Shown here piece after piece: positions 173 through 16,845 of a stretch of 35,138 nt of DNA (position 1 is its first letter; each line of letters begins with the position of its first letter). Made by a program: the position numbers and the translations under genes. The notes beneath the pieces were generated by a model, which saw nothing but the letters and a program-made list of their open reading frames with translations, was not told the DNA's origin and made no database searches. This DNA comes from Candidatus Iainarchaeum sp. GTDB lineage: Archaea; Iainarchaeota; Iainarchaeia; Iainarchaeales; Iainarchaeaceae. The stretch is taken from assembly GCA_016202305.1 (NCBI GenBank), contig JACQPB010000042.1:1-35138 (forward strand), written 5' to 3'.

Positions 173-247
173 CGCATTCATGTCAGCGCTCCAGCACGGT
201 TGGCAAATCACCGCTCCGCCATGATGGCTTTTCCCCTTCAGTTACGC

Positions 248-256
248 TTTAAATAT
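248..256 (+). promoter_or_regulatory. TATA box for the gene starting at 278
   Basis: TTTAAATAT is centred at 252, 26 nt before ATG 278. That is the archaeal TATA-to-start spacing expected for a leaderless transcript. It argues against the upstream in-frame ATG at 200. Confidence 0.55.
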
Positions 257-277
257 CTTTTCACTCCTTTTCCGTGC

Positions 278-895
278 ATGTTCCATCTGCGCGCGCTCTT
301 TGACATATTCACCGGCCGCAAGCCTGTCGAGGCCCTTTCCGACCAGAGGGTCGACATCAAGACTGGCCTGCTCGCTTTTGCGCTCGCCTTCTTCGTGACT
401 TTTTTCCTTCTGGGCATCGAGGTTTTCGTCTTCGAGATTTTCTACGGGGTCATGAGCAAGCAGGGCCTCGTTTCAATCATTCTCACGCTTGTCGGCATCA
501 TGATCGGCACTGTTGTCGGCGGCGTCATCCTTTACGTGCTCCTCGTGGTTTTCTCCTACATATACGGGGCCATGCATTATGCGATAATAAAGCACTACAC
601 CAATACCCCCGAGACGCTCAATGACTTCAACGGCGCGCTGCTCGTGATTTTTTCTTCGGTGCGCCTCGTGCAGGGTCTCTTGTTCCTCATTCCTGTCATC
701 GGGTGGCTGCTTGCCGGGCTTGTCCAGATTTACAGTCTGATTCCGGTTTACAAGTTCATCAAGAACAGGTTCAGCCTCTCCGAGGCGAAGGCCGTGATAG
801 TCCTTCTATTGCCCGTAACCCTGCTGGTTGTCGGCCTGTTCGTGCTGTCGGTAATCGCGGCCGCTTTCATAACCGTGCCGGTCATAGGGAAATGA
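278..895 (+). CDS. Yip1-like multi-pass membrane protein
   Basis: About 205 residues with roughly five hydrophobic segments: near 25-50, 58-95 (two runs in tandem), 118-150 and 172-200. After a short soluble N-terminus (MFHLRALFDIFTGRKPVEAL) come Gly-rich membrane spans. The 'short amphipathic head, five spans, helical loop NTPETLNDF before span 4' layout is what is seen in archaeal and bacterial Yip1-domain proteins, whose biochemical role is mostly unknown. I chose ATG 278 rather than the longer reading from 200 because a TATA-like box lies exactly 26 nt upstream and the extra 26 residues look non-native. It is convergent with the nnrD gene (15 nt gap). The family assignment is moderate; a generic polytopic membrane protein is the fallback. 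Confidence 0.6.
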   Translation: MFHLRALFDIFTGRKPVEALSDQRVDIKTGLLAFALAFFVTFFLLGIEVFVFEIFYGVMSKQGLVSIILTLVGIMIGTVVGGVILYVLLVVFSYIYGAMHYAIIKHYTNTPETLNDFNGALLVIFSSVRLVQGLLFLIPVIGWLLAGLVQIYSLIPVYKFIKNRFSLSEAKAVIVLLLPVTLLVVGLFVLSVIAAAFITVPVIGK

Positions 896-910
896 CTTTT
901 TCTGGCCATC

Positions 911-1765
911 TCATTTCAGGATTCTCTTCACTTGCCGCGCTATTTCCGGCGCCATGTCGGATGCGATGAAAGTATATCCTACTTTCTTGAGGAGTGCGTC
1001 TCCCGCCATGCCGTTCACGAACGCCGCCGCGGCCGCCGCCTCCAGCGGCTCCGCTTTCAGGGCGAGGAACCCTGTGCATATTCCCGCGAGCAAATCACCC
1101 GTGCCGCCCACGGTCATCCTCGCGTTTCCCGTGCGGTTCAGCAGCACTTTTTTCCCGTCGCTGATAATGTCAATCCTGCCTTTCAGCAGCACGATGCACC
1201 TATGGCGCGCTGCCGCCATTTTCGCAAGGGCTTCCCTGTTACTTAATGCCTTTCCATCCACTTTCACCCCTGAAAACGCCTCGAATTCCTTCATGTGCGG
1301 CGTGATTATCGTTCCCGGGCGCAGCTTCATTCCGCGGCATGCGTGCAGGGCGTCCGCGTCGAGCACCATCCTTGCCCGGCACTTCTGCACAAATCGCCTT
1401 ATCATGTGCAGCGTTGCCTTTTCGCGCCCCATCCCGTTGCCTATGAGCACAGAGTCAGCTTTTTTCGCGAGCTTCAGGAGTGTTTTCAGGTGCTGCTGCC
1501 CCCATTCTCTCCCGGCAAGCTTCTTCACTATAAGGTCGGGTGAATAGGCGCTTATAGCCCATGCCGGCTTCTCCAGCGATGCGACAGTCACGAGGTCCAC
1601 TCCGCTCCGGAGGCATGCGATTGCCGCCATTGCCGCGAGCGCCGGTGCTCCTGTCAGGTCTTTGGAGCCTCCTATTACAAGTACCCTGCCGTTCTGGCCC
1701 TTGTGCGAATCCCTCTTCCTTTTCGGGAAGAATTTCCGCACTTCCGAAAGCGTTACAGTCCTCAT
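911..1765 (-). CDS. nnrD: ADP-dependent NAD(P)H-hydrate dehydratase (kinase-fold domain only)
   Basis: 284 residues with the ribokinase-like dehydratase fold. It dehydrates damaged NAD(P)H hydrates back to NAD(P)H using ADP. Visible motifs are the N-terminal VLVIGGSKDLTGAP (about 28-41), IGNGMGRE (108-115), LDADALHA (135-142), the TPHMKEFEAF substrate segment (155-164) and the nucleotide/catalytic GGTGD (220-224, catalytic Asp224). The N-terminal epimerase domain found in many archaeal fusions (YjeF_N, NnrE) is absent, so this is the stand-alone NnrD form. The gene starts inside the gatE stop codon (ATGA overlap at 1762-1765), so the two are cotranscribed and probably translationally coupled. 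The link to gatE looks like housekeeping clustering, not a shared pathway. Confidence 0.88.
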   Translation of the reverse strand: MRTVTLSEVRKFFPKRKRDSHKGQNGRVLVIGGSKDLTGAPALAAMAAIACLRSGVDLVTVASLEKPAWAISAYSPDLIVKKLAGREWGQQHLKTLLKLAKKADSVLIGNGMGREKATLHMIRRFVQKCRARMVLDADALHACRGMKLRPGTIITPHMKEFEAFSGVKVDGKALSNREALAKMAAARHRCIVLLKGRIDIISDGKKVLLNRTGNARMTVGGTGDLLAGICTGFLALKAEPLEAAAAAAFVNGMAGDALLKKVGYTFIASDMAPEIARQVKRILK

Positions 1766-3666
1766 GCTCTTGCCGCTTTTTCAATCTCTTTGCGCAGCGC
1801 TTCGCTGATTTCCTTTCCGGAGGCCTTTCCGCGAAGCTCCTTCATGACGTCTCCCATCAGGGCGGGAAGAGCGCCGAGCTTCTTTTCCTTCACGAGTGCA
1901 ATGTTCCTCTGCACCGCTTCCTGCACCGCCCTCTCTATGTCAGCGCTTCCCGCGGATTGGGCTCCGCGAGAGGAGAGGATTGCCCGGAGTGGCATGCCGG
2001 TGTTCCGGCACTTCTCAATTATGGTTTGCTTCTGCACTTCCTTCGCGAGTGCCCCTGTCCTGATTGCCTCGATGAACTCCAGCAGGTCGCTTTCATGCAG
2101 GGCATCAATAGCCGCGCCATCCCTTCTGGCTTCCACGAGGCCTTCAAGCAGGAATATTGCCGTCTTCCGCGCGTCAGCACCGCCATTAACAGCCCTTTCG
2201 AAAAGCCTCGCGTAATTGCTCAGCTTCATCTCATCAACGTGCTTTTGGTTCAGGCCCCATTTCGCGTAGAGCCTTTCCCTTTCCTCAACCGTCATCGGCA
2301 GGCCCTTGCGTATTTCCCGCAGCATCTTTTCATCAGGCATGGTTGTTTCAAGGTCGGTTTCAGGGTACATCCTCGCGGCCCCGGGCAATGGCCTCAGGTA
2401 TTCCGTGTTTCCGCCATCCATTGCCCCGCGCGTCTCTTCCGGAACGCCGTCAAGGCACTGCAGCGCCCTCTCGAACACGGCTCTTGCCGCCGCTGCGGCC
2501 TTCTCTTTTTGGCCGGCGAGTATTACGAACGCATCGTGCGCGCCGCACCCCAGCTCGTCGCGCACTTTCGCAATCTCTTCACCGGTAATTCCGTAGTTCG
2601 GGAGCTCGTCGCTGTGGAAGAGGCCCTTCAGCCCTGTTTTTGTCTTGACATGGTCAGCGAACTCTGTTCCGAGGCGCCTGTCAGGCTGCAGCTCCTTTCC
2701 CAAGAACCCTGCAAACCCTTCAAGCTTGAACGCCAGCACGGTTTCGCCGCGCGAGATTGCGGACCTGATTATTTTGGCCTCCGTGCCACGGAATGCGGAG
2801 CTCGTTTCCTTCGGCTCAGCATGCACGCTTTCCTTCTTCACTCCTCTCTCGGCGAGCTCCTTTTTCACTTCTACGAGCATTGCCTGCCTCTGCACTTCGC
2901 GCCTCACGTACTCGTCTATCATCTCCAGCTCCTGCACGCCCTTTACCTCCACGCGCGCCCCTCCGCGTATCGAGATGTTCAGGTCCTGCCTTATGGTGCC
3001 GAGGCCGCGCTTCACCCTGCAAGTCCTCCTCAGCAGCGTGCCTATGGCACGCGCCGCCTCCTTCGCTTCCTCCGGCGTTTCTATTCCGGGTTCTGTCGCG
3101 AGCTCTATAAGAGGTATCCCGAGGCGGTCGAGCCTGTATGTTACCGTTGTGTCAGTCCTCTCCATCGGGCGCGCCGCATCCTCCTCCAGCACAATCGTCT
3201 GGATGCCGAGTTCCTTGCTTCCGATGCCTATGGAGCCGCCTGTCGCCACGAGCATGGTGCGCTGGAAGCCTGAGGTGTTGCTGCCGTCTATCACGAGCTT
3301 CCTCATGACATGCATCTCGTCAATCACCGCGCTTCTGCAGAGTATTGCCGCCTCTAGTATTGTACGGAACGCCTCCTTGTCAAGGGGCTGAGGCGGCTCC
3401 TCATCGAGCTCAACGAGTGAAATGGTGTCCTCGTATCCCTCATAAATGTAAGCGAGGCCCTTGTTGTATGCCTCAAGCGCGGCCTTGTCGTGCTCCCCGA
3501 GCTCTGATGCGGTAGGGCGCAGCCTCCTCCTCACTGTAAATCCGGGCCTGTCCTCCCTCAGGAGTGAAGGAGTCCTGCTGAAGAGCTTTCCTGTGTCAAG
3601 CTGCTGGTGCACTTCCAGGCCGCATTTCAGGCCGATGCCGCGGTAGTCAAAGTCCATTGGAAACAC
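1762..3666 (-). CDS. gatE: Glu-tRNA(Gln) amidotransferase subunit E
   Basis: 634 residues, the usual GatE length. GatE binds misacylated Glu-tRNA(Gln), activates the glutamyl group with ATP and amidates it with ammonia from GatD; this is the archaeal route to Gln-tRNA. The cradle domain shows GLEVHQQLDTGKLFSRTPS near the start, a SNTSGFQRT segment, the RLGIPLIELATEP metal/ATP region and IRQDLNISI. A bacterial AspRS-like (GAD) insertion follows at about 290-400, and the C-terminal YqeY-like tRNA-binding tail ends the protein. The TATA-like box at 3689-3697 lies 27 nt before the GTG at 3666, favouring that start; the ATG at 3657 is the alternative. gatD is encoded 8 kb away (11298-12611), not adjacent. 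Confidence 0.93.
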   Translation of the reverse strand: MFPMDFDYRGIGLKCGLEVHQQLDTGKLFSRTPSLLREDRPGFTVRRRLRPTASELGEHDKAALEAYNKGLAYIYEGYEDTISLVELDEEPPQPLDKEAFRTILEAAILCRSAVIDEMHVMRKLVIDGSNTSGFQRTMLVATGGSIGIGSKELGIQTIVLEEDAARPMERTDTTVTYRLDRLGIPLIELATEPGIETPEEAKEAARAIGTLLRRTCRVKRGLGTIRQDLNISIRGGARVEVKGVQELEMIDEYVRREVQRQAMLVEVKKELAERGVKKESVHAEPKETSSAFRGTEAKIIRSAISRGETVLAFKLEGFAGFLGKELQPDRRLGTEFADHVKTKTGLKGLFHSDELPNYGITGEEIAKVRDELGCGAHDAFVILAGQKEKAAAAARAVFERALQCLDGVPEETRGAMDGGNTEYLRPLPGAARMYPETDLETTMPDEKMLREIRKGLPMTVEERERLYAKWGLNQKHVDEMKLSNYARLFERAVNGGADARKTAIFLLEGLVEARRDGAAIDALHESDLLEFIEAIRTGALAKEVQKQTIIEKCRNTGMPLRAILSSRGAQSAGSADIERAVQEAVQRNIALVKEKKLGALPALMGDVMKELRGKASGKEISEALRKEIEKAARA

Positions 3667-3688
3667 GATAATAAGGCGTCATTAAAGT

Positions 3689-3697
3689 GATTTAAAC
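3689..3697 (-). promoter_or_regulatory. TATA box for gatE-nnrD
   Basis: On the minus strand GTTTAAATC is centred at 3693, 27 nt upstream of the GTG start at 3666 and 36 nt upstream of the ATG at 3657. The rest of the gap 3667-3808 shows nothing else recognisable. Confidence 0.5.
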
Positions 3698-3808
3698 CTT
3701 AGCTGTGGCGAGGATTGCCCTCTGTGCACCATTACAACACTGCCGGCAGAGTGCGCAGGCACGGGGTCGGTTTACATTTCGAGCTGTCTTTCGCTATCAT
3801 CCAGATTT

Positions 3809-5263
3809 CTATTTCGGGTTAAGGAACATATGGATTACCCTCTTATCCCGTAACGCCATTTCCCTGTTCACTGTTTTTATTCTTGCCAGTGCCTTTTGGT
3901 CAATTTGCTCCAGCTCCGGGACGTAACTATTATACCCTATAGGGTATTGTATCTCCACTACCGCCGGAATCATTCGGCCGATTATGTCGTTTGTTCCGGT
4001 TATGTCGACCGCGAGAATCCGCGGGTAAATGTAGCCTGAATGAAATCCTCCCGCCCCGGTCATTTGTGCCCTTGACCTGCCGATAGCGCCCCTCATTATT
4101 CCTGTCAGTACTTCTGTGGATCTGATTGCTATCCTTTCGCTCTGTTTCAGGAAGTCCGTCGTCCTATTTTTGGCTCCGCTTTCTGAAAGTTTGAAAATGG
4201 GGTCATAATCCATTGCTGTTGGAGGTTCCGGGGGAAGAGGCTTTCCAAATATTTGTGCGAATATAGTGGCTATTGTGTGCGGTGCTCTGCTAAGAGCCTC
4301 GTGGTGCGATTTCTTCATCACGGCTTCCACAACGCTCTCGGGCTTTTCAGGATGCCCGCCCAAAAATATGTTGGCGAATTTTATGTCCTTGCCGACCTTT
4401 GCATATTTTGCCGTGACTTGGGGGATTCCGTTGGGGCACTGGATTATATGGCGGATTTCCCATGCTTTGCCGTTATATGGCGGTATATGCATGGTTTGTT
4501 CAATTAAATATCTCCCGCGGGGCACCACCCTTGAAAAAAGGGTTTCTATTGTCTTTTCTACAGGTTGTTCTCCTAATTTGATGACTTTTCCCGGTATTAT
4601 TATTTCCCTTTCGTCACTGCCATGTCCTGCGTGGAACCAGAGAGCTTCATTAGTTTTACTAAGTTCATCCATCTTACGTTTTATTTCCATCCTGAAATTT
4701 TCCGCCGGTATAGTCATCTTCAGTCCTGTCCCATACATGTCAAACCGTATCAGGTCTGCTCCAACTCCGACTGTCGACTCCCCTTTCAGGTAAAAACTCC
4801 CGTGTTTAGTGAGCATGTTTATTGCAAGGAGTTCTGGATGTGCGTTCTGAGGTCTTTCACTCCCATGCGGCTGATATCCTATGTACGTCTCGTGGGATTC
4901 CGGTCTTGGTGTGTAATATCTAATGTTCGGGAATTTATGGCCCCCATAGTGGAGCTCACTTCTTCGAGGCGTGGCAAGCCTGTCGTAAGCCTCTCCCATT
5001 ATCCAAGGTTTCGTAAAAATGTGAGATAATTCACTTCCAACAGTCTTCATGAATAATTCGTCAAAAAGTCTGGGCGTTTCGCCGCTCCTCCTTATTTGTT
5101 CGAGCCTTGCGTTAAGCCTTGCGGCCATTTCCGGGTCAACTTCATGCCTGATGCTATCGATTCCTATTTCTGCGACCTGTCCCGGTGTCCGGCGTTCTGC
5201 AAATCCGTGCTCTTCCACGAAACGTGTTTTTGGATAACCGCTGTGCCTTGGTGGAGTTTTCAT
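3809..5263 (-). CDS. ATP-grasp-like protein of unknown substrate
   Basis: About 484 residues from ATG 5263. No named family is certain, but the second half reads like an ATP-grasp enzyme. An N-terminal nucleotide-binding stretch (SFYLKGESTVGVGADLIRF) has a Lys and a Gly-rich turn. Then comes LIEQTMHIP, then WEIRHIIQ followed by an AKYAKVG strand and FANIFLGG. Near the C-terminus is an ILAVDITG segment, then PAVVEIQYPIGYNSYVPEL, at the place of the metal-binding D...ExN of the fold, with Gln where Asn is usual. YheC/YheD-type ATP-grasps have the same order. ATP-grasps ligate a carboxylate to an amine or thiol; the substrate here is unknown. The reading frame can be extended to 5308, but a TATA-like box (5288-5296) lies inside that extension, 29 nt before ATG 5263. 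Codon use is more AT-rich than in neighbours. Confidence 0.5.
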   Translation of the reverse strand: MKTPPRHSGYPKTRFVEEHGFAERRTPGQVAEIGIDSIRHEVDPEMAARLNARLEQIRRSGETPRLFDELFMKTVGSELSHIFTKPWIMGEAYDRLATPRRSELHYGGHKFPNIRYYTPRPESHETYIGYQPHGSERPQNAHPELLAINMLTKHGSFYLKGESTVGVGADLIRFDMYGTGLKMTIPAENFRMEIKRKMDELSKTNEALWFHAGHGSDEREIIIPGKVIKLGEQPVEKTIETLFSRVVPRGRYLIEQTMHIPPYNGKAWEIRHIIQCPNGIPQVTAKYAKVGKDIKFANIFLGGHPEKPESVVEAVMKKSHHEALSRAPHTIATIFAQIFGKPLPPEPPTAMDYDPIFKLSESGAKNRTTDFLKQSERIAIRSTEVLTGIMRGAIGRSRAQMTGAGGFHSGYIYPRILAVDITGTNDIIGRMIPAVVEIQYPIGYNSYVPELEQIDQKALARIKTVNREMALRDKRVIHMFLNPK

Positions 5264-5287
5264 GATAATCATTTTGTTTTTTGGAAG

Positions 5288-5296
5288 TATAAAATA
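5288..5296 (-). promoter_or_regulatory. TATA box for the ATP-grasp-like gene
   Basis: TATTTTATA on the minus strand is centred at 5292. Transcription would begin near 5266, almost at ATG 5263. This gives the gene its own promoter although it directly follows the Lrp gene. Confidence 0.5.
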
Positions 5297-5308
5297 GTGC
5301 CCTATCAT

Positions 5309-5761
5309 CTACACCTGCGTCAGAACAATCATGGTCTGCGTCTTGTCAACGCCATCTATGTCGCGCAGCTTTTCCGTCACAATCTCGTTGAGGTCGTCAA
5401 TGTCCTTTGCCATGACCTTCACGATTATGTCCAGCCCGCCAGTGAGGATGGTGACTTCGCGCACGCCTTCGAGCTTCTTGATTTGCCGCGCGATTTCCGG
5501 CTGCTTTATTTTCCTTCCCTCGACATTGTAGTTCACTGTTATGCCGATGTATGCCATCACGGGCCTGCCGAGCTTCTTGTAGTCAATTTCGGCGGTGTAG
5601 TTGCGGATGATGCCGTGCTGCTCCAGCTTCTTTATCCTGTTGTGGATAGTGGTGGGCGGCATGCCGATTTTCTTTGCGAGCTGGCCGACGGTCTGGCGGC
5701 TGTTGCTTATGAGCTCGGTTATTATCTCGCGGTCCTTCTGGTCTATTTTTTCGGGTTCCAT
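5309..5761 (-). CDS. Lrp/AsnC-family transcriptional regulator
   Basis: 150 residues, typical for the family. The N-terminal winged HTH covers about 6-55 (IDQKDREIITELISNSRQ, then VGQLAKKIGMPPTTIHNRIKKLEQHGII). The C-terminal RAM ligand-binding/oligomerisation domain covers about 70-150 with the Gly-containing ILTGGLDIIVKV strand. Archaeal homologues bind amino acids, glutamine among them in several cases, and act as octamers on AT-rich palindromes. It is divergent from the glutaminase-like/asparaginase block across a gap with two inverted repeats, so control of that block and of itself is a reasonable inference. ATG 5761 lies about 29 nt after an AT-rich box within the palindrome at 5784-5802. 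Confidence 0.9.
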   Translation of the reverse strand: MEPEKIDQKDREIITELISNSRQTVGQLAKKIGMPPTTIHNRIKKLEQHGIIRNYTAEIDYKKLGRPVMAYIGITVNYNVEGRKIKQPEIARQIKKLEGVREVTILTGGLDIIVKVMAKDIDDLNEIVTEKLRDIDGVDKTQTMIVLTQV

Positions 5762-5783
5762 CTCTATTATTTCCGCCGGTCAA

Positions 5784-5802
5784 CCTTTATTAACTAATAA
5801 GG
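5784..5802. promoter_or_regulatory. Near-palindrome over the Lrp-gene promoter
   Basis: CCTTTATTAACTAATAAGG is an imperfect 19-bp palindrome that also contains the AT-rich box of the Lrp gene. Its position suits an autoregulatory operator; this is inference. Confidence 0.4.
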
Positions 5803-5819
5803 TGCAATTCGGCATTTTA

Positions 5820-5873
5820 TACAAGAAATGGTAAAATATCCCATTTTTTGATTTTTTAGGCGAATTTCTTGTA
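5820..5873. repeat. Spaced inverted repeat in the Lrp/glutaminase-like intergenic gap
   Basis: TACAAGAAAT (5820-5829) and ATTTCTTGTA (5864-5873) are perfect reverse complements separated by 34 nt of very AT-rich sequence. A dimer-of-dimers regulator such as Lrp could contact both halves. The pair sits 27 nt upstream of the TATA box of the 5943 gene. Confidence 0.4.
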
Positions 5874-5899
5874 ATTTTTACGATAATTATTGGAATAGG

Positions 5900-5910
5900 T
5901 TTATATTTTT
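5900..5910 (+). promoter_or_regulatory. TATA box of the glutaminase-like operon
   Basis: TTTATATTTTT lies where transcription would start near 5930. That leaves a short leader holding AGGTG (5933-5937), 5 nt before ATG 5943. This decides against the TTG at 5910 (inside the box) and the out-of-frame ATG at 5927. Confidence 0.55.
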
Positions 5911-5942
5911 TGGAACACGATAAGTCATGTGCAGGTGCTGGA

Positions 5943-7484
5943 ATGAACGCCAAAGAAAAAGCCAAAAAAAGGGACGTCATTGACAACCTCTTTGACTCGC
6001 TGGACGTCAAATCAAAGGGTCAGATTCTGCGCGAAGACATTATTGAAACGCTCCGGGCAAAGGGCATTTTGGAAGATGATTTGAGGATACGGGAAACCGT
6101 GAAGGCCCTGAAAGCCTATGAGACCAGGCCTATTTCCTCCAGGGATTTCCGGGAAATCATAGGCCAGAATGTCATGATTATCGAGAAGGCGCTGGCTGGT
6201 GGCCTTGTAATCCCGGATTTCAAGAACTTCTGCAGCTTTATAGTGAACATGCACAACCGCACGCTCCTGAATAAGGCCGGGGCGGTTTCCGGCCACACGC
6301 CGGTCCTCAAGGCGGTCAATCCGGAACAGTTTGCCATTTCAGTCTGCACGGTGGACGGCCAGCGCTTCAGCATAGGCGACTCCGATGCCTCTTTTTCCAT
6401 ACAGGGTATAGCCAAGGCGATTGCCTACTGCATAATCCTCGAAGAGCTAAAGGAGGAGGAAGTGCGCAAGCACATAGGCCGCGAGCAGGAGACGAGGGTG
6501 CTCGACGGTCTGATGCTCAATAAGGAGGGCTTGCCGCACAACGCCCTGGATGATGCTGGCGCGCTCGTCGGAATTTCCCTTATCGAGCCTCACAAGCCCA
6601 TTGATGCGCGGCGAAAAATCATGCTTGATGTCTTGAGGGCAATGAGCGGGGGCGCTGGCATGGCCGTAAATGAGCAGGCTTATGCCGCAGAAAAGAATTT
6701 CGCGAACAAGTATTCGGCGCTTACATATTTCATGCAGGAAAAGAAACTGTTCCCGAAAGGGGCGGATTTCATGAGCCATCTTGACCTCTTTCTCCAGTGC
6801 CTGTCCGTGGATGTAACCGCCGATTCTTTGGCTGCAATTGCGGCAACCCTTGCCGGTGCCGGAATATGCCCCCTGACGGGGCAGGCCGTCTTCAAGCCGA
6901 TAACTGTCCGCAACTGCCTCTCCACACTCTACTTTTGCGGAATGGGGGCGGAGGGTGGCGATTTCTCTTTCACTGTAGGCCTGCCGGCCATCGGCGGAAA
7001 GTCTGGCGGGATGTTGGTAGTCATACCGAACGTGATGGGGATAGCCATTTGGTCTCCGCGGGTCAATGATTTCGAAAACAGCGCCCGCGGGATGGATTTC
7101 TGCCACAAGCTGATTGAGCAGTTTAATTTCCATCCGTATGACAGCACGGTGCGCTCTCTGAACAAGGCCGATCCGCGCCTCATCAAGAATACGGAAAAGA
7201 TGCGCGGCATCATGGCTGCGGTTGATGCGGCTTCGCGCGGCGATTTGTATGAGCTCAAACGTCTGGTCGCTAACGGCGTTGACCTCAACGAAGGGGACTA
7301 TGATTTGCGAACCCCCATGCACCTTGCGGCCGCAGAGGGCCATGCCGAAGCCATGCTATATTTCATATCCTTAAAGCTGGACATGAGCCCGAAAGACAGG
7401 TGGGGCGGAACGCCCATGCGGGACGCCGAGAATGGCAACCACAAGGAAATAATCGCATTGCTGCAGAAAAACGGGGGGAGGTGA
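5943..7484 (+). CDS. Glutaminase-fold protein of KGA architecture, active site degenerate (probable pseudoenzyme)
   Basis: 513 residues with the three parts of animal kidney-type glutaminase: an EF-hand-like helical N-domain (about 10-88, ending GLVIPDF), a beta-lactamase-like glutaminase domain (about 92-400; AISVCTVDGQRFSIGD, VGLPAIGGKSGG, VVIPNVMGIAIWSP) and C-terminal ankyrin repeats (about 420-513). Aligned without gaps from 118 to 353 to human GLS as I remember it (offset 131), most catalytic and substrate residues are changed: Tyr249 is His118, Ser286 is Gly155, Asn335 is Asp204, Asn388 is Tyr257, Tyr394 is Phe263, Tyr414 is Phe283, Tyr466 is Gly335 and Val484 is Lys353. Lys289 (Lys158) and Glu381 (Glu250) remain. 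Without the Ser nucleophile hydrolysis of glutamine is unlikely; a sensing or scaffold role is inferred. It heads a tight operon with an ankyrin protein and an asparaginase. Confidence 0.85.
   Translation: MNAKEKAKKRDVIDNLFDSLDVKSKGQILREDIIETLRAKGILEDDLRIRETVKALKAYETRPISSRDFREIIGQNVMIIEKALAGGLVIPDFKNFCSFIVNMHNRTLLNKAGAVSGHTPVLKAVNPEQFAISVCTVDGQRFSIGDSDASFSIQGIAKAIAYCIILEELKEEEVRKHIGREQETRVLDGLMLNKEGLPHNALDDAGALVGISLIEPHKPIDARRKIMLDVLRAMSGGAGMAVNEQAYAAEKNFANKYSALTYFMQEKKLFPKGADFMSHLDLFLQCLSVDVTADSLAAIAATLAGAGICPLTGQAVFKPITVRNCLSTLYFCGMGAEGGDFSFTVGLPAIGGKSGGMLVVIPNVMGIAIWSPRVNDFENSARGMDFCHKLIEQFNFHPYDSTVRSLNKADPRLIKNTEKMRGIMAAVDAASRGDLYELKRLVANGVDLNEGDYDLRTPMHLAAAEGHAEAMLYFISLKLDMSPKDRWGGTPMRDAENGNHKEIIALLQKNGGR
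7477..7483 (+). promoter_or_regulatory. Strong Shine-Dalgarno site for the ankyrin protein
   Basis: GGAGGTG ends 6 nt before ATG 7490 and overlaps the TGA stop of the preceding gene (7482-7484). This fixes the start at 7490 and indicates translational coupling. Confidence 0.75.
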
Positions 7485-7489
7485 CCTAT

Positions 7490-7789
7490 ATGGCGGACAA
7501 AATGAATTCGGTTCTTGCGGTGTGCTGGGCCGCAGCGCAGGGCGACATAAACGAGCTGCGGCGCCTGGTCGCTTCGGGCGTTGACCTTAACGTCGGCGAT
7601 TATGACAATCGCACAGGCCTCCATCTGGCCGCGTCCGAGGGCAAGCTCGAAGCCGTGAAGTTCTTTATATCAAAAGGGGTCAACCTCAGCCCGAAGGACA
7701 GGTTTGGCGGAACGCCGCTGGTTGATGCCAAGCGGGGGGACCACCGCCAGGTTGTGGCGCTGCTTGAGAAGCACGGGGTAAAGGAGTAA
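7490..7789 (+). CDS. Small ankyrin-repeat protein, duplicate of the upstream C-terminal domain
   Basis: 99 residues that are essentially one copy of the ankyrin module ending the preceding glutaminase-like protein. About 50 of 84 aligned residues are identical without a gap, including GDYD-x-RT-x-x-HLAA, SPKDR-x-GGTP and ALL-x-K. At least two ankyrin units are visible (helix pairs around 10-27 and 38-58, plus a third beginning at SPKDRFGGTP). It probably binds another protein; a competing or bridging role with the glutaminase-like ankyrin tail is inference. A longer frame reaches back to 7400, but the strong SD site fixes ATG 7490. Its TAA stop overlaps the next gene's ATG by one base (TAATG at 7787-7791). 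Confidence 0.8.
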   Translation: MADKMNSVLAVCWAAAQGDINELRRLVASGVDLNVGDYDNRTGLHLAASEGKLEAVKFFISKGVNLSPKDRFGGTPLVDAKRGDHRQVVALLEKHGVKE

Positions 7790-8883
7790 TGGTATCGATG
7801 GAAAAAATCAAAGTGTTTGTATTGAACACCGGCGGAACGCTCGGCTCGGTCGGCAAGCCCTTGCGGCCGGCAAAGTCCGCGGCAGAGCTTTTGCATGGCA
7901 TCCGCATTCCGGTAGAAATTGAGCTGACACTGAAGGATTTCAAGTACCGGCTGGACTCCTCTAACATCATGCACCGCGAGCGCGTCCTGATGGCGCGTGA
8001 CATAGCGGCGGCCTATGCGACGCATGATGCGTTCATCATTCTGCACGGTACAGACAGCCTGGCGGAGACATGCGCCGCATTCTGCCTGTTCTTCAAGCAT
8101 TCATTGCAGAAATCCATTATCGTGATTGGCGCGCAGATGGCTTCGGACGAGCCCGGCTCTGACGTGCAGCTCCAGCTCACGAACGCCTTCAGGGTCGCAT
8201 CGTCTTTTGCCCGCCACGATGTGGTTGGGGTCTACAACGTGTGCATTGGCGATGTTTGGGACGGGAGCAGGGTCAGGAAGAGGGCTGAATCCAACTTCAT
8301 GGCATTTTACACTCCGGGGCGCTACCCGGTCGCGCGCGTGTGGCCGCACATACACTTCGATGAAGGCCTGCGTTATAAGGACCCGGTGCAGGCCATTCAG
8401 GGCCTCAAGATTGACAGCGCGCTCGAGCCTAACGTGGCCTATTTCAGGGTCTCTGCGGACACGCCGCCCTGGATTGTAATGGACCTTGTCAAAAGCAACC
8501 GCATCAAGGGGGCCATACTGGAATGCAAGGGCGCGGGTGGAATTCCGGAGCGCGAGTGGAAGGATTACCAGAATGATGAAACGTACTCATGGATTGATGT
8601 CATAGGCGCTGCCACCAAGGCCGGAATACACGTTGGCGTCATATCCCCTTTCGAAGACGGAAGGGTCATCCTGGAGCGTTATGAGCCCGGCATGAAGGCC
8701 AAGGAAGCCGGAGCCATAAGCCTTGAGAGCCTCACCCCGGACATGGCCGACCTAAAGTTCCGGCAAGCGATAGCCATGTTCCCGGACAATAGGGAGAAAA
8801 TCCAGGAATTCATTTCCACAAATGTCGCGGGCGAACTGCTCACTGGCACCGAGGACACGGAAGAATTTGTTGATACTCATTAA
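7789..8883 (+). CDS. Type I (bacterial-type) L-asparaginase family enzyme
   Basis: 364 residues (361 if the ATG at 7798 is used). It is predicted to hydrolyse L-asparagine, and perhaps glutamine, to the acid and ammonia in the cytoplasm, as there is no signal peptide. Conserved elements are the nucleophile-loop VLNTGGTLG (first catalytic Thr), LDSSNI (substrate-binding Asp-Ser), ILHGTDSLAET (second Thr-Asp pair) and a Lys in GSRVRKRAESNFMAF at the place of the catalytic Lys. The triads therefore look intact, unlike the glutaminase-like protein upstream. It lacks the extra N-terminal domain of GatD, so it is not the tRNA amidotransferase subunit. It lies third in the operon, with a one-base overlap upstream. 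GGAG at 7783-7786 may serve either ATG. Confidence 0.85.
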   Translation: MVSMEKIKVFVLNTGGTLGSVGKPLRPAKSAAELLHGIRIPVEIELTLKDFKYRLDSSNIMHRERVLMARDIAAAYATHDAFIILHGTDSLAETCAAFCLFFKHSLQKSIIVIGAQMASDEPGSDVQLQLTNAFRVASSFARHDVVGVYNVCIGDVWDGSRVRKRAESNFMAFYTPGRYPVARVWPHIHFDEGLRYKDPVQAIQGLKIDSALEPNVAYFRVSADTPPWIVMDLVKSNRIKGAILECKGAGGIPEREWKDYQNDETYSWIDVIGAATKAGIHVGVISPFEDGRVILERYEPGMKAKEAGAISLESLTPDMADLKFRQAIAMFPDNREKIQEFISTNVAGELLTGTEDTEEFVDTH

Positions 8884-8961
8884 AAATTTCTTTCCGGATG
8901 CGTGTTTAACTGGCATTGAATCATGGAATCCGAAAATGCTGCGGATGTGGGTTGGCTTTTC

Positions 8962-9462
8962 ATGGAAATCATAGAAACCCCGCTCATGCGGATGCTGTAT
9001 GCAAAGGAAATAGAGCACCGGGTGATTATTCACAAAAAGCCCGCATATTCATGTGAGGATGTTTCGCGCGAGCGCAATATCCCGGTCGCCGATATTTTAA
9101 AGTGCATCCTTGTCGCGGATAAGTGGCACAAGCACTGCCTCTTCTGCCTTCCGGGGGATTGCGCGCTCGACCTTGAGAAGGCGCGGGCTTTCCTTGGCAC
9201 GACGCGCCTGAGCTTTGCAACCAGGGAAGAGGCAGAAGCCGTGACCGGTCAGAAGCCCGGTACCATCAATCCCTTTTTCCACACCGTTAAAGTCCCGATA
9301 GTGTTCGACAAATCAATCCTCTCGAAAACGGCCATGGATATCAGCAGCGGAAATCCCAATGCGGGTGTGCAGATGCAGGCGCAGATGCTCGTGCTCCTTG
9401 TGAACCCCAAGTTTGCCGATGTTCTAGCTTCCATGCCGGAGGTAAAAAATACGTGGAAGTAG
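8962..9462 (+). CDS. YbaK/ProX-like aminoacyl-tRNA deacylase
   Basis: 166 residues from ATG 8962. The family folds into a mixed alpha/beta domain that hydrolyses mischarged aminoacyl-tRNAs (Cys-, Ala- or Ser-tRNA(Pro) and others). Visible are the N-terminal helix TPLMRMLYAKEIEHRVI, the HKKPAYSCEDV segment, the invariant-Lys motif DILKCILVAD (Lys47), a TVKVPIVFDKSI strand and SSGNPNAGVQM near the end. An in-frame ATG at 8923 would add 13 residues; I prefer 8962 because homologues begin with the TP-x-x-R-x-L helix, although no clear SD or TATA decides it. It sits 78 nt after the asparaginase gene on the same strand. The window also holds both tRNA-Pro genes and proS, which would fit a prolyl-tRNA editing role, but the specificity cannot be read from sequence. 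Confidence 0.75.
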   Translation: MEIIETPLMRMLYAKEIEHRVIIHKKPAYSCEDVSRERNIPVADILKCILVADKWHKHCLFCLPGDCALDLEKARAFLGTTRLSFATREEAEAVTGQKPGTINPFFHTVKVPIVFDKSILSKTAMDISSGNPNAGVQMQAQMLVLLVNPKFADVLASMPEVKNTWK

Positions 9463-9506
9463 GAAAGCTGAAAATGGGATTGGGTGTTGGTAAATAAGGC
9501 GTAGTT

Positions 9507-10628
9507 ATGAAAAAATCGAAGAATGCAATCAAACGAAAACCGCGAGAAGAAAGCGCTGCTGTTGGTAAACTCAAAAGAGCCGCAGGAGTACAAACTTCTC
9601 AGAAGGGTAGTTTGGCCCCAAGGCCAAATTTTGATTTTATTGAAAGGCATGAATATAAACCAGTTCTAACTGCAACAAAAATAACGAGGGTTAATTGGGA
9701 ATCAATGAGTTTATATGATCATTTAAAAAGATTCAGCCAAAATGTTACAGGGGATGCGGATTTCAGGCTGTACGCCGTCCATGTATTGGGTTACTTGTGT
9801 TCTGGTAAAAGGAAATACTCGGATGGTTTGTACCGATACGAATTTAATTTATCCAAAGAAACATACCCTATAGTGAAAGACATTGCTGTCCAGGCCAGTA
9901 CTGCCGCGTTGCGCGACCCATGGTGGAAAGTTCAGCAATCTGCATTCCACAATCTTGCTGTTGTTGGCGACCCGCGCTCACAACAAATTTTTACGAGTGT
10001 ATTGAGAGGCAAAGCCGATTGGATTTTCCAGAACTTAAGCGAAAATTTTATTGGCGCGCCGTTATTGAGGCATTCGGGTGAATATACTGCTGCGGATAGG
10101 CGTGTCGAAAGTCTTAGTGGTATTAGACGTCCGACAAAAGCCCAATATTTAGCTTATTTGCAAATTGATGCATTGGATGGACTTGCAAAAATTGGCGGAA
10201 AGGGCAATATTTCAAGGTTACTAGGGATAATGAATGGGGAGAACAAATGGCTCTATAGGTATGCAAGGCACGCTCTTGCCGAGCACTCAGACCCCGAACT
10301 AATGCGATTACTCATAAAAACCGTTGATTTTCAAAAAATGACCGAGGATGATGCCCGCATTCTGATTAAGACTTCAAAAAAAATAATGAATCCAACTCAG
10401 CCCCACTGGCCGACCCCAGCAGAATCGGCATTCAGTCCACTTCCCCCTGAGTCTGACCCACATAATCTTGATAAGAGAAATCTTTTGCCAGAAACCAAAG
10501 TTGCTGTGCTGTCTGCAGCAAATGCATTAGGCACCTTGCCTGCCCAATTTGACTGGCCAAAAATTTATGATTTTGCAAATAGCTCAAGCGAATTCAAACT
10601 TGCAAAACATTATGGCTTAGTAAAATAA
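9507..10628 (+). CDS. HEAT-repeat-like protein of unknown function
   Basis: 373 residues; I do not recognise a named family. Helical pairs of the HEAT type are visible: RLYAVHVLGYL (about 90-100), QQSAFHNLAVVGD with IFTSVL (about 150-175), then IDALDGLAKIGG, followed by RYARHALAEHSD with LMRLLI (about 225-275). The first 45 residues are Lys/Arg-rich and probably disordered. Proteins of this layout usually act as protein-binding scaffolds. The coding sequence is clearly more AT-rich than the asparaginase and deacylase genes before it, with many AAT, TTA and AAA codons, which hints at a different origin. TAAATAAGG at 9491-9499 lies too near the ATG for a leaderless start, so the promoter is uncertain. 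Confidence 0.6.
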   Translation: MKKSKNAIKRKPREESAAVGKLKRAAGVQTSQKGSLAPRPNFDFIERHEYKPVLTATKITRVNWESMSLYDHLKRFSQNVTGDADFRLYAVHVLGYLCSGKRKYSDGLYRYEFNLSKETYPIVKDIAVQASTAALRDPWWKVQQSAFHNLAVVGDPRSQQIFTSVLRGKADWIFQNLSENFIGAPLLRHSGEYTAADRRVESLSGIRRPTKAQYLAYLQIDALDGLAKIGGKGNISRLLGIMNGENKWLYRYARHALAEHSDPELMRLLIKTVDFQKMTEDDARILIKTSKKIMNPTQPHWPTPAESAFSPLPPESDPHNLDKRNLLPETKVAVLSAANALGTLPAQFDWPKIYDFANSSSEFKLAKHYGLVK

Positions 10629-10659
10629 ACATTTAATGAAAAGGCAAATGTCTTGCATG

Positions 10660-11022
10660 TTATTTGGCATATTCTACATTCGGCAGCCGCTCGAACTGCC
10701 TGTCGCCTGTGAGGAATTTAAGGCCGTGCCTTTTGGCATAAATGTAGCCTATGCAGTCCGCATATGAGATGCCTTTTTTCTTATGCTCTTTCCTGAACCT
10801 TATGGCTTCCATGAATGCTTCGTCATCCGGCTCTACAACCGCTTTTCTGTATGTGCCATAAATCATTTGCGCCTCCTTCTCCCCGTACTCGTGCATGGCA
10901 TGCCAGTATATTTCGACGAGGTTGAAAACAGTAATCATTATCTCTTCAGATGAATATTTGGCGTAGTTCGCATTCCCGGACATCAGCTCTATCACCGCGT
11001 AGCTGTCCCAGAAATAGCTCAT
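10660..11022 (-). CDS. vapC: PIN-domain ribonuclease toxin (VapC-like)
   Basis: 120 residues from ATG 11022. PIN-domain acidic residues are in place: Asp6 (FWDSYAV), Glu37 (FNLVEIYW), Asp89 (SYADCIGY) and Asp107 (LTGDRQF). These bind Mg/Mn for cleavage of RNA; VapC toxins commonly cut tRNA or rRNA. The start overlaps the stop of the RHH-type gene upstream (ATGA at 11019-11022), the standard antitoxin-toxin arrangement. A frame extending to 11151 is merely the antitoxin region read in another frame. Confidence 0.85.
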   Translation of the reverse strand: MSYFWDSYAVIELMSGNANYAKYSSEEIMITVFNLVEIYWHAMHEYGEKEAQMIYGTYRKAVVEPDDEAFMEAIRFRKEHKKKGISYADCIGYIYAKRHGLKFLTGDRQFERLPNVEYAK

Positions 11023-11255
11023 GCCCAGCCCGCCCTCATTTCGTCCTTTATCTGCTGGGCGGTTTTTCCGGAAAAGCGCGGGAACCTGCCGAACATATCG
11101 GCTGCAATAACGCCTTTTTTGGAGAGGAGCTTTTCCTGCGCCAGCTTCCATATAATGTCGTTGTAGGTGTCCCTCGGGTGGTCCTTTACCCTTTTCAGCA
11201 GCTCTATGACCTTCCTTTCCAGGAGGATTGTTGACTGGTCTTTTGCAGCAGGCAT
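11019..11255 (-). CDS. vapB: VapB-like antitoxin
   Basis: 78 residues from ATG 11255. The N-terminal STILLERKVIELLKRV strand-helix followed by DTYNDIIWKLA is typical of ribbon-helix-helix dimers that bind DNA. The C-terminal FPRFSGKTAQQIKDEM tail would wrap the PIN toxin. An in-frame ATG at 11273 exists, but a TATA-like box at 11277-11285 is centred 26 nt before 11255, so the leaderless start is 11255. The palindrome at 11254-11273 covers the transcription start and is the likely autoregulatory operator. Confidence 0.75.
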   Translation of the reverse strand: MPAAKDQSTILLERKVIELLKRVKDHPRDTYNDIIWKLAQEKLLSKKGVIAADMFGRFPRFSGKTAQQIKDEMRAGWA

Positions 11256-11273
11256 GTATAATGTATTATACAT
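11254..11273. promoter_or_regulatory. Perfect 9-bp-arm palindrome at the vapBC start (operator)
   Basis: ATGTATAAT and ATTATACAT flank a central GT, giving a 20-bp palindrome with no mismatch. It occupies exactly the stretch between the TATA-like box (11277-11285) and the initiating ATG. Binding of the VapBC complex there would block transcription initiation. The function is inferred from position. Confidence 0.65.
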
Positions 11274-11276
11274 TAG

Positions 11277-11285
11277 TATATAAAA
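11277..11285 (-). promoter_or_regulatory. TATA box of vapBC
   Basis: TTTTATATA on the minus strand is centred at 11281, 26 nt upstream of ATG 11255. Only 12 nt separate the box from the gatD stop region at 11298. Confidence 0.55.
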
Positions 11286-11297
11286 ATCTTCCTTTCG

Positions 11298-12611
11298 TCA
11301 ACCTTCGTATCGCGTGAATTCGCTTATCTCCCCCCGCAGGTTCTTCCCAATCAGCTCTTTCACCTGCGCGGGCTTGTAGTTTCCCAAGAGCCATGCAAGC
11401 TTTATGAACGCTGTTTCAGGAGTCATGTCCTCCGCGGGAATCACTCCCATGTTGAGGAGGTCAATGCCCGGCGAGTACACGTGCATGTGCACCCTCCCGA
11501 ATATTGTCTGGCTGGCCATGACCACGATTGTGCCTGAATCGCAGATTCTCTTTATGGCCCTGAAAATCTTCTCGTTGTATTTGCTGTTCTCGTCGCTCAC
11601 CCCTATTTCCGTGTGGCCCAGGCCGGTTCCCTCAATCACAAGCCCGGAGAACTTGTGCTTTATGACGTAGTCGAACTGCTCTGCCCTCATGTTCGTGTGG
11701 GTTTTTATGATGCTGACGTTGCGGTCCATCTTGTCGCGCAGCTTGAGTTTTTTCGACGGGTCATGCCTCGGGTAATCCTTTTTAATGAACTCTATGCGCC
11801 TTGTCTCGAAATTCACCCTTGCAATGGGCGTATCGTTCACGGCCTTGAATGCATCTCTTCTGCTCGAGTGCATCTTCCTCGTCTTGCATGCCGGCAGCAG
11901 CACGCAGTTGTCGTCTTCGACGCTTTCGTGCATGCATATCGCCACGCCCGCGAAGTCGGTTTTCACTATGAATTCGCATGCGCACACTAGGTTCATTGCC
12001 GCATCGGAGCTGGGCCTGTCGGAGCTGCGCTGCGCCCCCACGAGTATCACTGGCACTTGTATGTCCTCCAGCATGAATGCGAGGGCCGCGGAAGTGTAGT
12101 GTATCGTGTCGGTGCCGTGGGGCAGGAGTATCCCTTTCACGCTCCTGTCCTGCGCGGCTTTCGCTATTTCGCGTGCAATCAGCCCGTAATGCTCGACTCT
12201 CATGTTTTCAGATGCTATCTGCGTGATTTTCTTGGAAGTGAATCTGGCGATTTTCGTGACTTCCGGGAACATTTCCAGGAGGTCTTCTGGCTCGAAGCCC
12301 GCTGTCACGGCGCCGGTCCTGTAATCCACCCTGCTGGCTATCGTGCCGCCTATGTGCAGTATGGCTATTTTGGGGAGTTCATTGCCCTGCTCTGTGCGAT
12401 GCCTCGCGCCTTTTCCGACTTTTTGCGCCTGGCCGAGTTTTTCTATCGCGGTTTTTGCAGATATTCTGGCCCCGATGTTGTAGCCCGACTTGAGCTTGAG
12501 CCGTATCACGCCCTTGTCCTCGGGTGATGGCGGGAGCACGCTGCCGACATATTCCCTTGGGCCGTCCCTGAGCCTTATCATTTCCCCTTCCTGCAGGCGG
12601 TTCTTTTTCAT
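11298..12611 (-). CDS. gatD: Glu-tRNA(Gln) amidotransferase subunit D
   Basis: 437 residues. GatD is the asparaginase-like subunit that releases ammonia from glutamine or asparagine and channels it to GatE. Unlike plain asparaginases it has the N-terminal all-beta domain (about 5-70, with GDMI-like EGEMIRLRDG and LKSGYNIGARIS). The asparaginase part carries ILHIGGTIAS (first Thr), LLPHGTDTIHYTSAAL (Thr-Asp pair), GAQRSSDRPSSDAAMNL and KMHSSRRDAF (catalytic Lys region). It ends with the usual MTPETAFIKLAWLLG helix. The start ATG 12611 follows an AT-rich box (12621-12630) that is closer than the usual 26 nt. A 10-bp hairpin (12634-12657) lies upstream. The partner gatE is at 1762-3666. Confidence 0.92.
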   Translation of the reverse strand: MKKNRLQEGEMIRLRDGPREYVGSVLPPSPEDKGVIRLKLKSGYNIGARISAKTAIEKLGQAQKVGKGARHRTEQGNELPKIAILHIGGTIASRVDYRTGAVTAGFEPEDLLEMFPEVTKIARFTSKKITQIASENMRVEHYGLIAREIAKAAQDRSVKGILLPHGTDTIHYTSAALAFMLEDIQVPVILVGAQRSSDRPSSDAAMNLVCACEFIVKTDFAGVAICMHESVEDDNCVLLPACKTRKMHSSRRDAFKAVNDTPIARVNFETRRIEFIKKDYPRHDPSKKLKLRDKMDRNVSIIKTHTNMRAEQFDYVIKHKFSGLVIEGTGLGHTEIGVSDENSKYNEKIFRAIKRICDSGTIVVMASQTIFGRVHMHVYSPGIDLLNMGVIPAEDMTPETAFIKLAWLLGNYKPAQVKELIGKNLRGEISEFTRYEG

Positions 12612-12714: not shown

Positions 12715-13758
12715 TCACTTCATCGTATCGATTTTGTTCTTGGAGAACGGCGTTATTTCCCCCGCATAGCTCTTCTGCATCATGCTTTTCACTTTCTTGT
12801 AGTCGGTTGTCTGTGCGAGCACCCACATGAGCTTCACGTATGCTGTTTCAGGCAGCATGTCATATACTGGTATCGCCCTGAGGCCCCTGAGGCGGTTCCC
12901 TATTTCGGCTTCGTAGATGCGTTGCCAGTGCTTTCCGAGGTAGCAGTTGCTTGCAATCACTACTGCCGCGTTTTTGCTGTTCGCGTATGCGATGGCCTCC
13001 TTCATGCCGTTGTCCAGCACGGGTATGTTTCCGAGGCCGAATCCTTCGAGGACCATGCCTTTCACGGGGTAATCGACGAGGTTCTTTATCCTGTTGCCAT
13101 CGAAGCCAGGGTAGACTTTTACCGTGGCGACGTCGGTTTCGAGCTTGTTGTAGAGTTTTGGCTTCGACCTCGACCTTTTCCTGTAGGGCGTGTTCAGGCT
13201 TATGAACTGCTGTATGTCGCCGAGCGGGTAGGAAGTTTCGAAGCTCCCGAATCCGCCGAGCTCGGAGGCGTTCACTTTCTTGGTGCGTGTGGCCCTCATT
13301 ATTTTTCCATTGAATACAATGAGGGTTTCGGCGATATCGGCGCGGCCTGCAACCGTGATTGCATCGCGCAGGTTCACTTCCGCGTCGGTGTTGAGCTGCT
13401 CCGGGTGCATCAGGGCGCTCGTGAACACTACTGGTATATTGAGCTCCTGTATGAGGAACGAGACCGCGGTAGCTGCATAGGCCGCGGTGTCGCTGCCTAT
13501 CGTGACGACTATGCCGTCATAATCGTTCATGGCGTAATAAATGGTGTTTGCCAGCGTGAGCCAGTTATCCGGCTTCATGTCGGCGCTGTCCATCCTGAAA
13601 AGATTGGTCGTGGAAACTTCAAAATGCTCTTTCACCCTGGGCGTGCTGTTCACAAGGGTTTCCATGGTTATTTCGCCGTATTTCCATATGCCGTCCACCA
13701 GCTTCGCGCCCATGGTGCCGCCGGTTCCGATTACAAGCACCCTCGGTTTCCTTGCCAT
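12715..13758 (-). CDS. Asparaginase-family paralogue with altered second catalytic motif
   Basis: 347 residues of type I asparaginase fold without the GatD N-terminal domain. Conserved: VIGTGGTMG (Thr12), MDSADM (Ser58), Lys160/161 in RATRTKKVNAS and the C-terminal MLPETAYVKLMWVLA helix shared with GatD. The second motif, normally H-G-T-D, reads IGSD (Ile87-Gly88-Ser89-Asp90). Ser could replace the Thr chemically, but the change and the lost His suggest altered substrate or activity. An insertion rich in Arg/Lys (YRKRSRSKPK, about 190-200) is unusual and could contact RNA. It is transcribed toward gatD, 103 nt away. A TATA-like box at 13781-13790 is 28 nt before ATG 13758. It may be an asparaginase or a GatD-like accessory; the sequence does not decide. 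Confidence 0.75.
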   Translation of the reverse strand: MARKPRVLVIGTGGTMGAKLVDGIWKYGEITMETLVNSTPRVKEHFEVSTTNLFRMDSADMKPDNWLTLANTIYYAMNDYDGIVVTIGSDTAAYAATAVSFLIQELNIPVVFTSALMHPEQLNTDAEVNLRDAITVAGRADIAETLIVFNGKIMRATRTKKVNASELGGFGSFETSYPLGDIQQFISLNTPYRKRSRSKPKLYNKLETDVATVKVYPGFDGNRIKNLVDYPVKGMVLEGFGLGNIPVLDNGMKEAIAYANSKNAAVVIASNCYLGKHWQRIYEAEIGNRLRGLRAIPVYDMLPETAYVKLMWVLAQTTDYKKVKSMMQKSYAGEITPFSKNKIDTMK

Positions 13759-14728: not shown

Positions 14729-15712
14729 TCATGTTCTAAGCAATTTTACCGTTCGGTGGTTTATGGCAATGGTATTGCCATTCTTAGTAACTATTTCTGC
14801 TTCCTCGAGCTTTGCGGTTAGTTTGAGAACCCTTTCTTGTGTAATGCCATAAATTTGTGAAATTATTCTCTGGCTAACTTGCATTGAGGGGGCTGCAACT
14901 ATCCCGTCCACTATGCCTTTAGCAATTAATGCATCGGCAGAATTACCATTCCACCCAATCAAATCAACAGCTTTCTTTAAACTTTGCCCGAGTTCTGCCT
15001 TTTTGCCCAAGTTAAGGTTACGCAGCCTCTCCATATTTCTTTGTTCCTCTTCCACTCTCAATTTCCTCACTTGTTCCCTTGCCTCGGCGTAAAGCTCCCT
15101 TACCGTCTGCCTCTTCATTCTTCTGAACCTATCTGCAGTTTCTTCTCCCTCTTCAGGGGGCCTTATTTGGCTTGGGCTATTATTTGCCCTCCTTACTGTC
15201 ATTTCTCTCACTTCAAATACTGTTGCAATCATCTGCTTGGAATACCGGAATGAGCCATCCGGATTCTTTATGGCGAGAATTTTCCTTATGAGCGGTCGCT
15301 CTTCATGGGTCTTGGCTTGCGACCTCAAACTGGCCTCGAGCTCATGCCTGGTTCTTTCGTGAAGATGCCGTGTGTCCCACATCTGGCCTGTCGAAAAGCT
15401 GACTCCCACCCTCCTTGCGGCTGATGCAATGGATGACCCAGACCTTCTGAATTCCAGGTATTTTGCAACCAATTCAGGCTCTTTTGATGCCAGGGCTTTT
15501 GTTTTGGGAACGGTGAGGCCTACTTCCCCCGCTATTTTATTTATGAGGCGCGGATATGTCCCAGGAACTTCTCTTGCTATATCTGTGGCGCCATGGGTGC
15601 CTTTGTCCGCGAGCTCAAGAACTCTTGCAAAACTATTTAGCGGAAGCGACTTTTTCAATTTATTTTTTGCAAGAAATTGTATATGCAATATTCTTGTACT
15701 ATTCGGATTCAT
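14729..15712 (-). CDS. Multi-HTH DNA-binding-like protein, unrecognised
   Basis: 327 residues; I do not recognise a family. Three helix-turn-helix-like segments can be seen: GATDIAREVPGTYPRLINKI (about 40-60), SSIASAARRVGVSFSTGQMW (about 93-112) and, near the C-terminus, VSQRIISQIYGITQERVLKL (about 280-300). A charged coiled-coil stretch rich in Arg/Glu (about 195-240) links them. The arrangement suggests a sequence-specific DNA binder, possibly a regulator or a recombination accessory protein. Codon use is more AT-rich than in the flanking fbp and Lrp genes. An AT-rich box AGTTTAATATT (about 15740-15750) inside the end of the upstream gene is roughly 33 nt before ATG 15712. Confidence 0.5.
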   Translation of the reverse strand: MNPNSTRILHIQFLAKNKLKKSLPLNSFARVLELADKGTHGATDIAREVPGTYPRLINKIAGEVGLTVPKTKALASKEPELVAKYLEFRRSGSSIASAARRVGVSFSTGQMWDTRHLHERTRHELEASLRSQAKTHEERPLIRKILAIKNPDGSFRYSKQMIATVFEVREMTVRRANNSPSQIRPPEEGEETADRFRRMKRQTVRELYAEAREQVRKLRVEEEQRNMERLRNLNLGKKAELGQSLKKAVDLIGWNGNSADALIAKGIVDGIVAAPSMQVSQRIISQIYGITQERVLKLTAKLEEAEIVTKNGNTIAINHRTVKLLRT

Positions 15713-16728: not shown

Positions 16729-16845
16729 ATTAATACTATATGAAATTAATAATATAAATTTTTGCATTTTGCGTAAAAAATTATCAAAATACATTATATT
16801 ATTGAAAAGCACTAATTTACTTTGTAACGTTAAAACGGTGTCCAT

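Follow-up and report, generated by a model that had tools for sequence, protein, structure and literature searches.

The window, as we call the whole 35,138-nucleotide stretch of Candidatus Iainarchaeum DNA that we analyzed, encodes a KGA-type glutaminase homologue whose nucleophile and most of whose amide-binding residues, judging from its sequence, are lost. The gene (positions 5943 to 7484, forward strand, 513 amino acids) is the first of a three-gene operon that also encodes a stand-alone ankyrin protein and an asparaginase-family protein. We conclude with moderate confidence that its product is a pseudo-glutaminase, a former enzyme that was retained to serve as a structural or regulatory subunit together with the linked asparaginase-family protein. 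Its standing as a pseudoenzyme is well supported by alignment and structure prediction, in that catalytic residues have been lost and the predicted fold and open reading frame appear to be maintained by selection.

Pfam recognized an EF-hand_14 domain (PF17959) at residues 14 to 91, a glutaminase domain (PF04960, 250 bits) at residues 113 to 398, and ankyrin repeats at residues 428 to 510; this combination, together with a predicted glutaminase fold, assigns the protein to the KGA type. Its top phmmer matches among solved structures were the human kidney- and liver-type glutaminases (E ~1e-103), and the alignment with human KGA (8gwr and 5uqe) extends over nearly the full length and is free of gaps through the catalytic domain, at an offset of 131. 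The original prediction had proposed these gene coordinates, the three-part architecture, and the gap-free offset, all of which proved correct. The score against the NCBIfam equivalog TIGR03814 (Gln_ase) was 196.4 bits, below the cut-off of 255.4. The AF2 model, a prediction from eight aligned sequences, had a mean pLDDT of 80 and a pTM of 0.83, with low confidence at residues 331 to 353, a segment that is part of the pocket. Foldseek returned human KGA, GLS2, and GAC as the top matches to this model (TMt 0.91 to 0.95 and ~2.4 A rmsd over ~400 residues for human GAC), so the glutaminase fold is predicted to be intact.

We compared the active site with those of 13 reference glutaminases, namely, 5 bacterial KGA-type proteins, human GLS and GLS2, and 6 GlsA-type enzymes. 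All 13 are invariant at human positions 249, 285, 286, 289, 315, 319, 335, 381, 388, 414, and 466, where the window protein has His, Gln, Gly, Lys, Thr, Asp, Asp, Glu, Tyr, Phe, and Gly, respectively. It thus keeps Gln285, Lys289, and Glu381, the last two as originally predicted, and departs from the references at 249, 286, 315, 319, 335, 388, 414, and 466. Ser286 and Lys289 form the catalytic Ser-x-x-Lys dyad (PMC10912226, PMC13204110), which in the window protein reads Gly-x-x-Lys: Gly155 (codon GGT, positions 6405 to 6407) stands at the position of the nucleophile, and Lys158 (6414 to 6416) is retained. All five of the substrate-binding residues Tyr249, Asn335, Asn388, Tyr414, and Tyr466 are changed, through His118 (6294 to 6296), Asp204 (6552 to 6554), Tyr257 (6711 to 6713), Tyr414Phe, and Tyr466Gly, the last of these opening the Gly335-Lys353 loop (6945 to 7001), which corresponds to human Tyr466-Val484 and is modeled with low confidence. 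Asn319 is likewise replaced, by Asp188 (6504 to 6506). The original prediction had listed eight substitutions, and all eight are present, but Tyr394Phe is no loss, since Phe occupies this position in all five bacterial KGA-type proteins, and position 484 is variable, with Ile in one bacterial reference. Asn319Asp, Ser314Glu/Gly315Thr, and Arg387Lys were absent from that list.

Changes in the window protein affect 6 of 9 pocket positions versus 28 of 89 other KGA-invariant positions (Fisher p=0.04), a concentration that, for this protein alone, appears real but moderate; the same test gave p=0.002 and 0.015 in its two archaeal homologues. In filament-forming GAC and GLS2, the activation loop has an Arg317-Glu325 salt bridge and a Phe318/Tyr249 lock (PMC10912226). 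Both are absent in the archaeal proteins, and the salt-bridge residues vary in the bacterial enzymes too.

Those two homologues, L049 and L050, were the only other full-length ones among 684 archaeal genomes. They belong to genomes G225 and G222, from another phylum, and are 51% identical to the window protein; the carriers are therefore three small-genome archaea in two phyla. Both retain Ser286 and have Lys289Thr, which turns the dyad into Ser-x-x-Thr, so the dyad has been broken differently in each lineage. They further carry Gln285Arg, Asn319His, Asn335Ala, Asn388Glu, and Tyr466Glu, as well as a Cys at position 288, and Tyr414 is retained only in L050. Tyr249His, Asp at 334 (Asp203 in the window protein), and Glu381 are common to all three archaeal proteins, whose glutaminase domains open with a clade-specific segment, SFIxNxxNRTxLN, that is a candidate contact surface. 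The original prediction had treated a serine at position 286 in related genomes as grounds for suspecting sequencing errors. L049 and L050 literally have such a serine, but it occurs without Lys289 and alongside Tyr249His, Asn335Ala, Asn388Glu, and Tyr466Glu, and since Lys289 and these other pocket residues are lost, it does not rescue the active site. Sequencing or assembly error is itself ruled out by two independent genomes with the operon and the same class of losses. As for other candidates, a PF04960 match in G013 (20 bits, below the cut-off) was an SMC-like coiled-coil protein, and the remaining matches in the phylum of G092 were generic ankyrin repeats only. Another archaeal phylum contains a GlsA-like protein (L077 in G318, 1128 to 2300, forward strand) with an intact Ser-Lys dyad and a C-terminal extension.

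KGA-type three-domain glutaminases are already known in kind from animals and bacteria. Like human KGA/GLS and GLS2 (5uqe, 8gwr, 8szl), the window protein has three domains, a gap-free glutaminase domain (~39 to 41% identity), and the corresponding predicted fold; unlike them, it is without the Ser286-Lys289 dyad, has Tyr249, Asn319, Asn335, Asn388, and Tyr466 replaced, and is encoded alongside a free ankyrin paralogue and an asparaginase-like gene. Its closest three-domain relatives are the bacterial KGA-type proteins L005 to L009 (35 to 42% identical overall), from the phylum of the MAG "Zetaproteobacteria bacterium." In contrast to the window protein, all five keep the dyad and the substrate residues, and the genes at L005 to L008 adjoin a glutamine-synthetase-like gene rather than an asparaginase gene. 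At these four loci (L005, L006, L007, and L008), the two genes are directly side by side, which places opposing reactions at one locus. The L007 protein (196 to 1842, reverse strand) also has a canonical-looking calcium-binding EF-hand loop (DSDSDGLIDKHE), and the window protein's N-domain is without such a loop. GlsA-type bacterial enzymes and the archaeal L077 protein share the Pfam fold; unlike the window protein, they have no EF-hand or ankyrin domain and an intact dyad (QSVIKP and NNAGA in L077).

We compared pairwise identity at 12 pocket positions with that of the rest of the protein and found that active glutaminase pairs of 40 to 60% overall identity were identical at 11 or 12 of the 12 positions in every pair tested (p 0.02 to 6e-5). 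The window protein and L049/L050, in contrast, are identical at 2 of 12 versus ~50% elsewhere (p=0.02), in a test that amounts to one contrast between two lineages, represented by three sequences of which two are close. This reversal of pocket constraint, with the rest of the protein maintained, argues for a noncatalytic role. Between L049 and L050, the one pair on which our dN/dS values rest, the glutaminase domain has a dN of 0.165 and a dN/dS of ~0.07, and the free ankyrin protein has a dN/dS of ~0.05; dS is near saturation in both, so the ratios are rough. The ankyrin tails of this pair are 90% identical, and the reading frames have stayed open at ~50% identity across two phyla. The sequences thus indicate, within the roughness of dN/dS, that the protein is under purifying selection. 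The original idea of a pseudoenzyme with a preserved scaffold is thus well supported, by the homologues from a second phylum, whose dyad is broken in another way, by the intact predicted fold, and by low dN/dS.

These pocket data also bear on the possibility that the old pocket was remodeled into a sensor, binding another small molecule or a metal and relaying the signal to the asparaginase-like enzyme via the ankyrin tail. Such a role would fit the His249 and Asp334 that all three proteins have in common, the acidic or His residues gained at 319, 335, 388, and 466, and the conservation of the pocket between L049 and L050 (10/12 identical). However, with 2 of 12 positions identical between the window protein and L049/L050, the comparison argues against a single new ligand site conserved throughout the clade, and we regard this explanation as unlikely. 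The original prediction had offered a ligand sensor and a polymer-forming scaffold as examples of a new role; a single conserved ligand sensor is disfavored, and a scaffold or regulatory role fits better.

It is less likely still that the archaeal proteins are working enzymes with altered chemistry or substrate, in which another residue of the same cleft serves as nucleophile or general base. Half of the dyad is left in each lineage (Lys289 in the window protein, Ser286 in L049/L050, with Glu381 in all), Lys353 and His118 are new in the window protein, and L049/L050 have their Cys at 288; weak or altered activity may thus persist. Against this, no new nucleophile is common to all three proteins, and the substrate-binding Asn and Tyr residues are gone along with the dyad. 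We infer that the window protein does not hydrolyze glutamine.

The pseudo-glutaminase gene does not stand alone. In the window, G225, and G222, the same three genes follow one another, encoding the glutaminase-like protein, an ankyrin protein of ~100 amino acids, and an asparaginase-family protein of ~360 amino acids, and the ankyrin and asparaginase neighbors pointed out in the original prediction are thus present in three of three genomes. In the window, an AT-rich stretch with a TATA-like TTTATATTTTTT (5880 to 5942) is likely the operon promoter, and the pseudo-glutaminase gene is followed on the same strand by genes for the free ankyrin protein (7490 to 7789, 99 amino acids) and the asparaginase-family protein (7789 to 8883, 364 amino acids). 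In each of the three genomes, the ankyrin stop codon and the asparaginase start codon overlap (TAATG in the window and TTGA in the other two). The fused tail and the free ankyrin protein are paralogues (54% identity in the window), and copies of the free protein are orthologous in the three genomes (63 to 65% identity between phyla), so that a single duplication appears to have preceded their divergence. A "CWAA" segment that typifies bacterial tails is still present in the free copy but has been lost from the fused archaeal tail.

The third protein matches the type I asparaginase/GatD domain over its full length (PF00710; 1zq1, 5ot0) and retains the Thr17 nucleophile, the Thr-Asp of an HGTD motif, and Lys164, so that, on alignment, its catalytic core is intact. 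It nevertheless represents a distinct subfamily: its scores against the NCBIfam models for type I asparaginase and GatD fall well short of the cut-offs (135.8/260.5 and 108.4/324 bits), it is without the GatD_N domain, and its lid loop is shortened (GSxGKPLRPAKSAAEL) and without the usual Tyr. We set its AF2 model aside because of low quality (pLDDT 59). Among 229 genomes, this subfamily occurs only in the three with the glutaminase-like gene, and all other matches have at most about 38% identity (at most 32% for full-length ones). Identity across phyla falls from 73% for the asparaginase-family protein, through 63 to 65% for the free ankyrin protein, to 50% for the glutaminase domain, as expected if the enzyme bears the main constraint. 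Gene order and co-occurrence suggest that the three proteins are physical partners.

A maximum-likelihood tree placed the three archaeal proteins in a single clade (100/99) nested among the KGA-type proteins, a group that was split from the GlsA enzymes at 100/100; the window protein's branch has a length of 0.84. No glutaminase-like gene was found in the other genomes of the window's phylum (n=87). The 73% identity of the asparaginase-like protein across phyla, compared with 45% for GatD between the window genome and G225 (69% within the genus), suggests horizontal transfer of the operon between phyla. Third-position GC of the operon is close to that of host genes in each case (0.68 to 0.74 in the window, 0.17 to 0.22 for L049, and 0.38 to 0.45 for L050), which points to a transfer long ago. 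The window genome (1.04 Mb, 56 contigs, about 80% complete) is archaeal, as first assumed: the contig carries GatD, GatE, diphthamide synthase, ATP-dependent DNA ligase, and family I ProRS. Bacterial contamination is ruled out by contigs with archaeal genes and host-like operon composition. We likewise reject a viral origin, as the viral-contig scan was empty and phage records gave only GlsA-type or ankyrin matches. No plasmid record matched the glutaminase-like protein at 80% coverage or the asparaginase-like protein at 60% identity or more.

In the window, the operon lies between GatE and GatD and beside a YbaK-like tRNA-editing protein, which raises the possibility of a role connected with the Glu-tRNA(Gln) amidotransferase (GatDE) or with tRNA amidation. 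However, the operon is located elsewhere in G225 and G222, among ribosomal protein and RNA polymerase genes (L049) or next to methionine aminopeptidase (L050), and the GatE-to-GatD interval, 7.6 kb in the window (3666 to 11298), is 1.9 kb in same-genus G001, with other genes and without the operon. A role around GatDE is therefore very improbable. Glutamine synthetase is present in G000 and was not found in the incomplete genomes G222 and G225, so the operon is not clearly tied to it. Least probable of all is functionless decay of a former glutaminase, to which the long branch and the losses outside the pocket (28/89) might point, given that the frames are open in all three genomes and both phyla, that dN/dS is low, that the operon is preserved, that the ankyrin tails of L049 and L050 are 90% identical, and that codon composition is adapted to each host.

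The surrounding sequence offered several further observations. The genes at 3809 to 5308 (reverse), 9507 to 10628 (forward), and 14729 to 15712 (reverse) encode sizeable proteins with no family match or a weak, sub-cut-off HEAT match, and the first two have third-position GC of 0.48 and 0.36, compared with ~0.7 in their neighbors, which suggests that they entered the GatE-GatD interval more recently. Next to GatD lies another asparaginase-family gene, an ordinary one (12718 to 13758, reverse), and the two are adjacent in G001 (L038) too. The 367-amino-acid protein at 15745 to 16845 (reverse) has two AsnC/Lrp-type DNA-binding domains (two HTH_24 stretches) in one chain, apparently from internal duplication or fusion.

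To return to the pseudo-glutaminase as a structural or regulatory subunit, we propose that archaea acquired a KGA-type protein from bacteria or from a source not yet sampled, and that this protein lost its Ser-Lys dyad and amide-binding residues and was then kept as such a subunit. It would be made together with the asparaginase-family protein and the free ankyrin protein, a copy of its own tail, and it would oligomerize as KGA does. Regulation of the catalytic domain by ankyrin repeats has a precedent in human GLS2 and KGA (PMC10912226). Here, the ankyrin tail and the free ankyrin protein might bridge the pseudo-glutaminase to the asparaginase-like enzyme or to a shared target, so that the module would position or regulate an amidohydrolase, with the asparaginase-like protein as the working enzyme. 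More tentatively, the operon may encode an amidohydrolase complex of a new kind, an archaeal module exchanged horizontally and made up of a dead KGA-type scaffold, an ankyrin adaptor, and an asparaginase-family working subunit. In open-licence papers, we found neither the terms pseudo-glutaminase, pseudoglutaminase, and glutaminase pseudoenzyme nor a catalytically broken archaeal KGA-type clade in a conserved operon.

If the complex exists as proposed, the substitutions by which its scaffold dispensed with the active site would differ between the two lineages. A set of KGA-type proteins that has the fold and the EF-hand-like and ankyrin domains but no catalytic site would separate the roles of tail and assembly from those of the active site, a matter of current interest for human KGA and GLS2, and the linked asparaginase-like gene provides a specific, testable partner.
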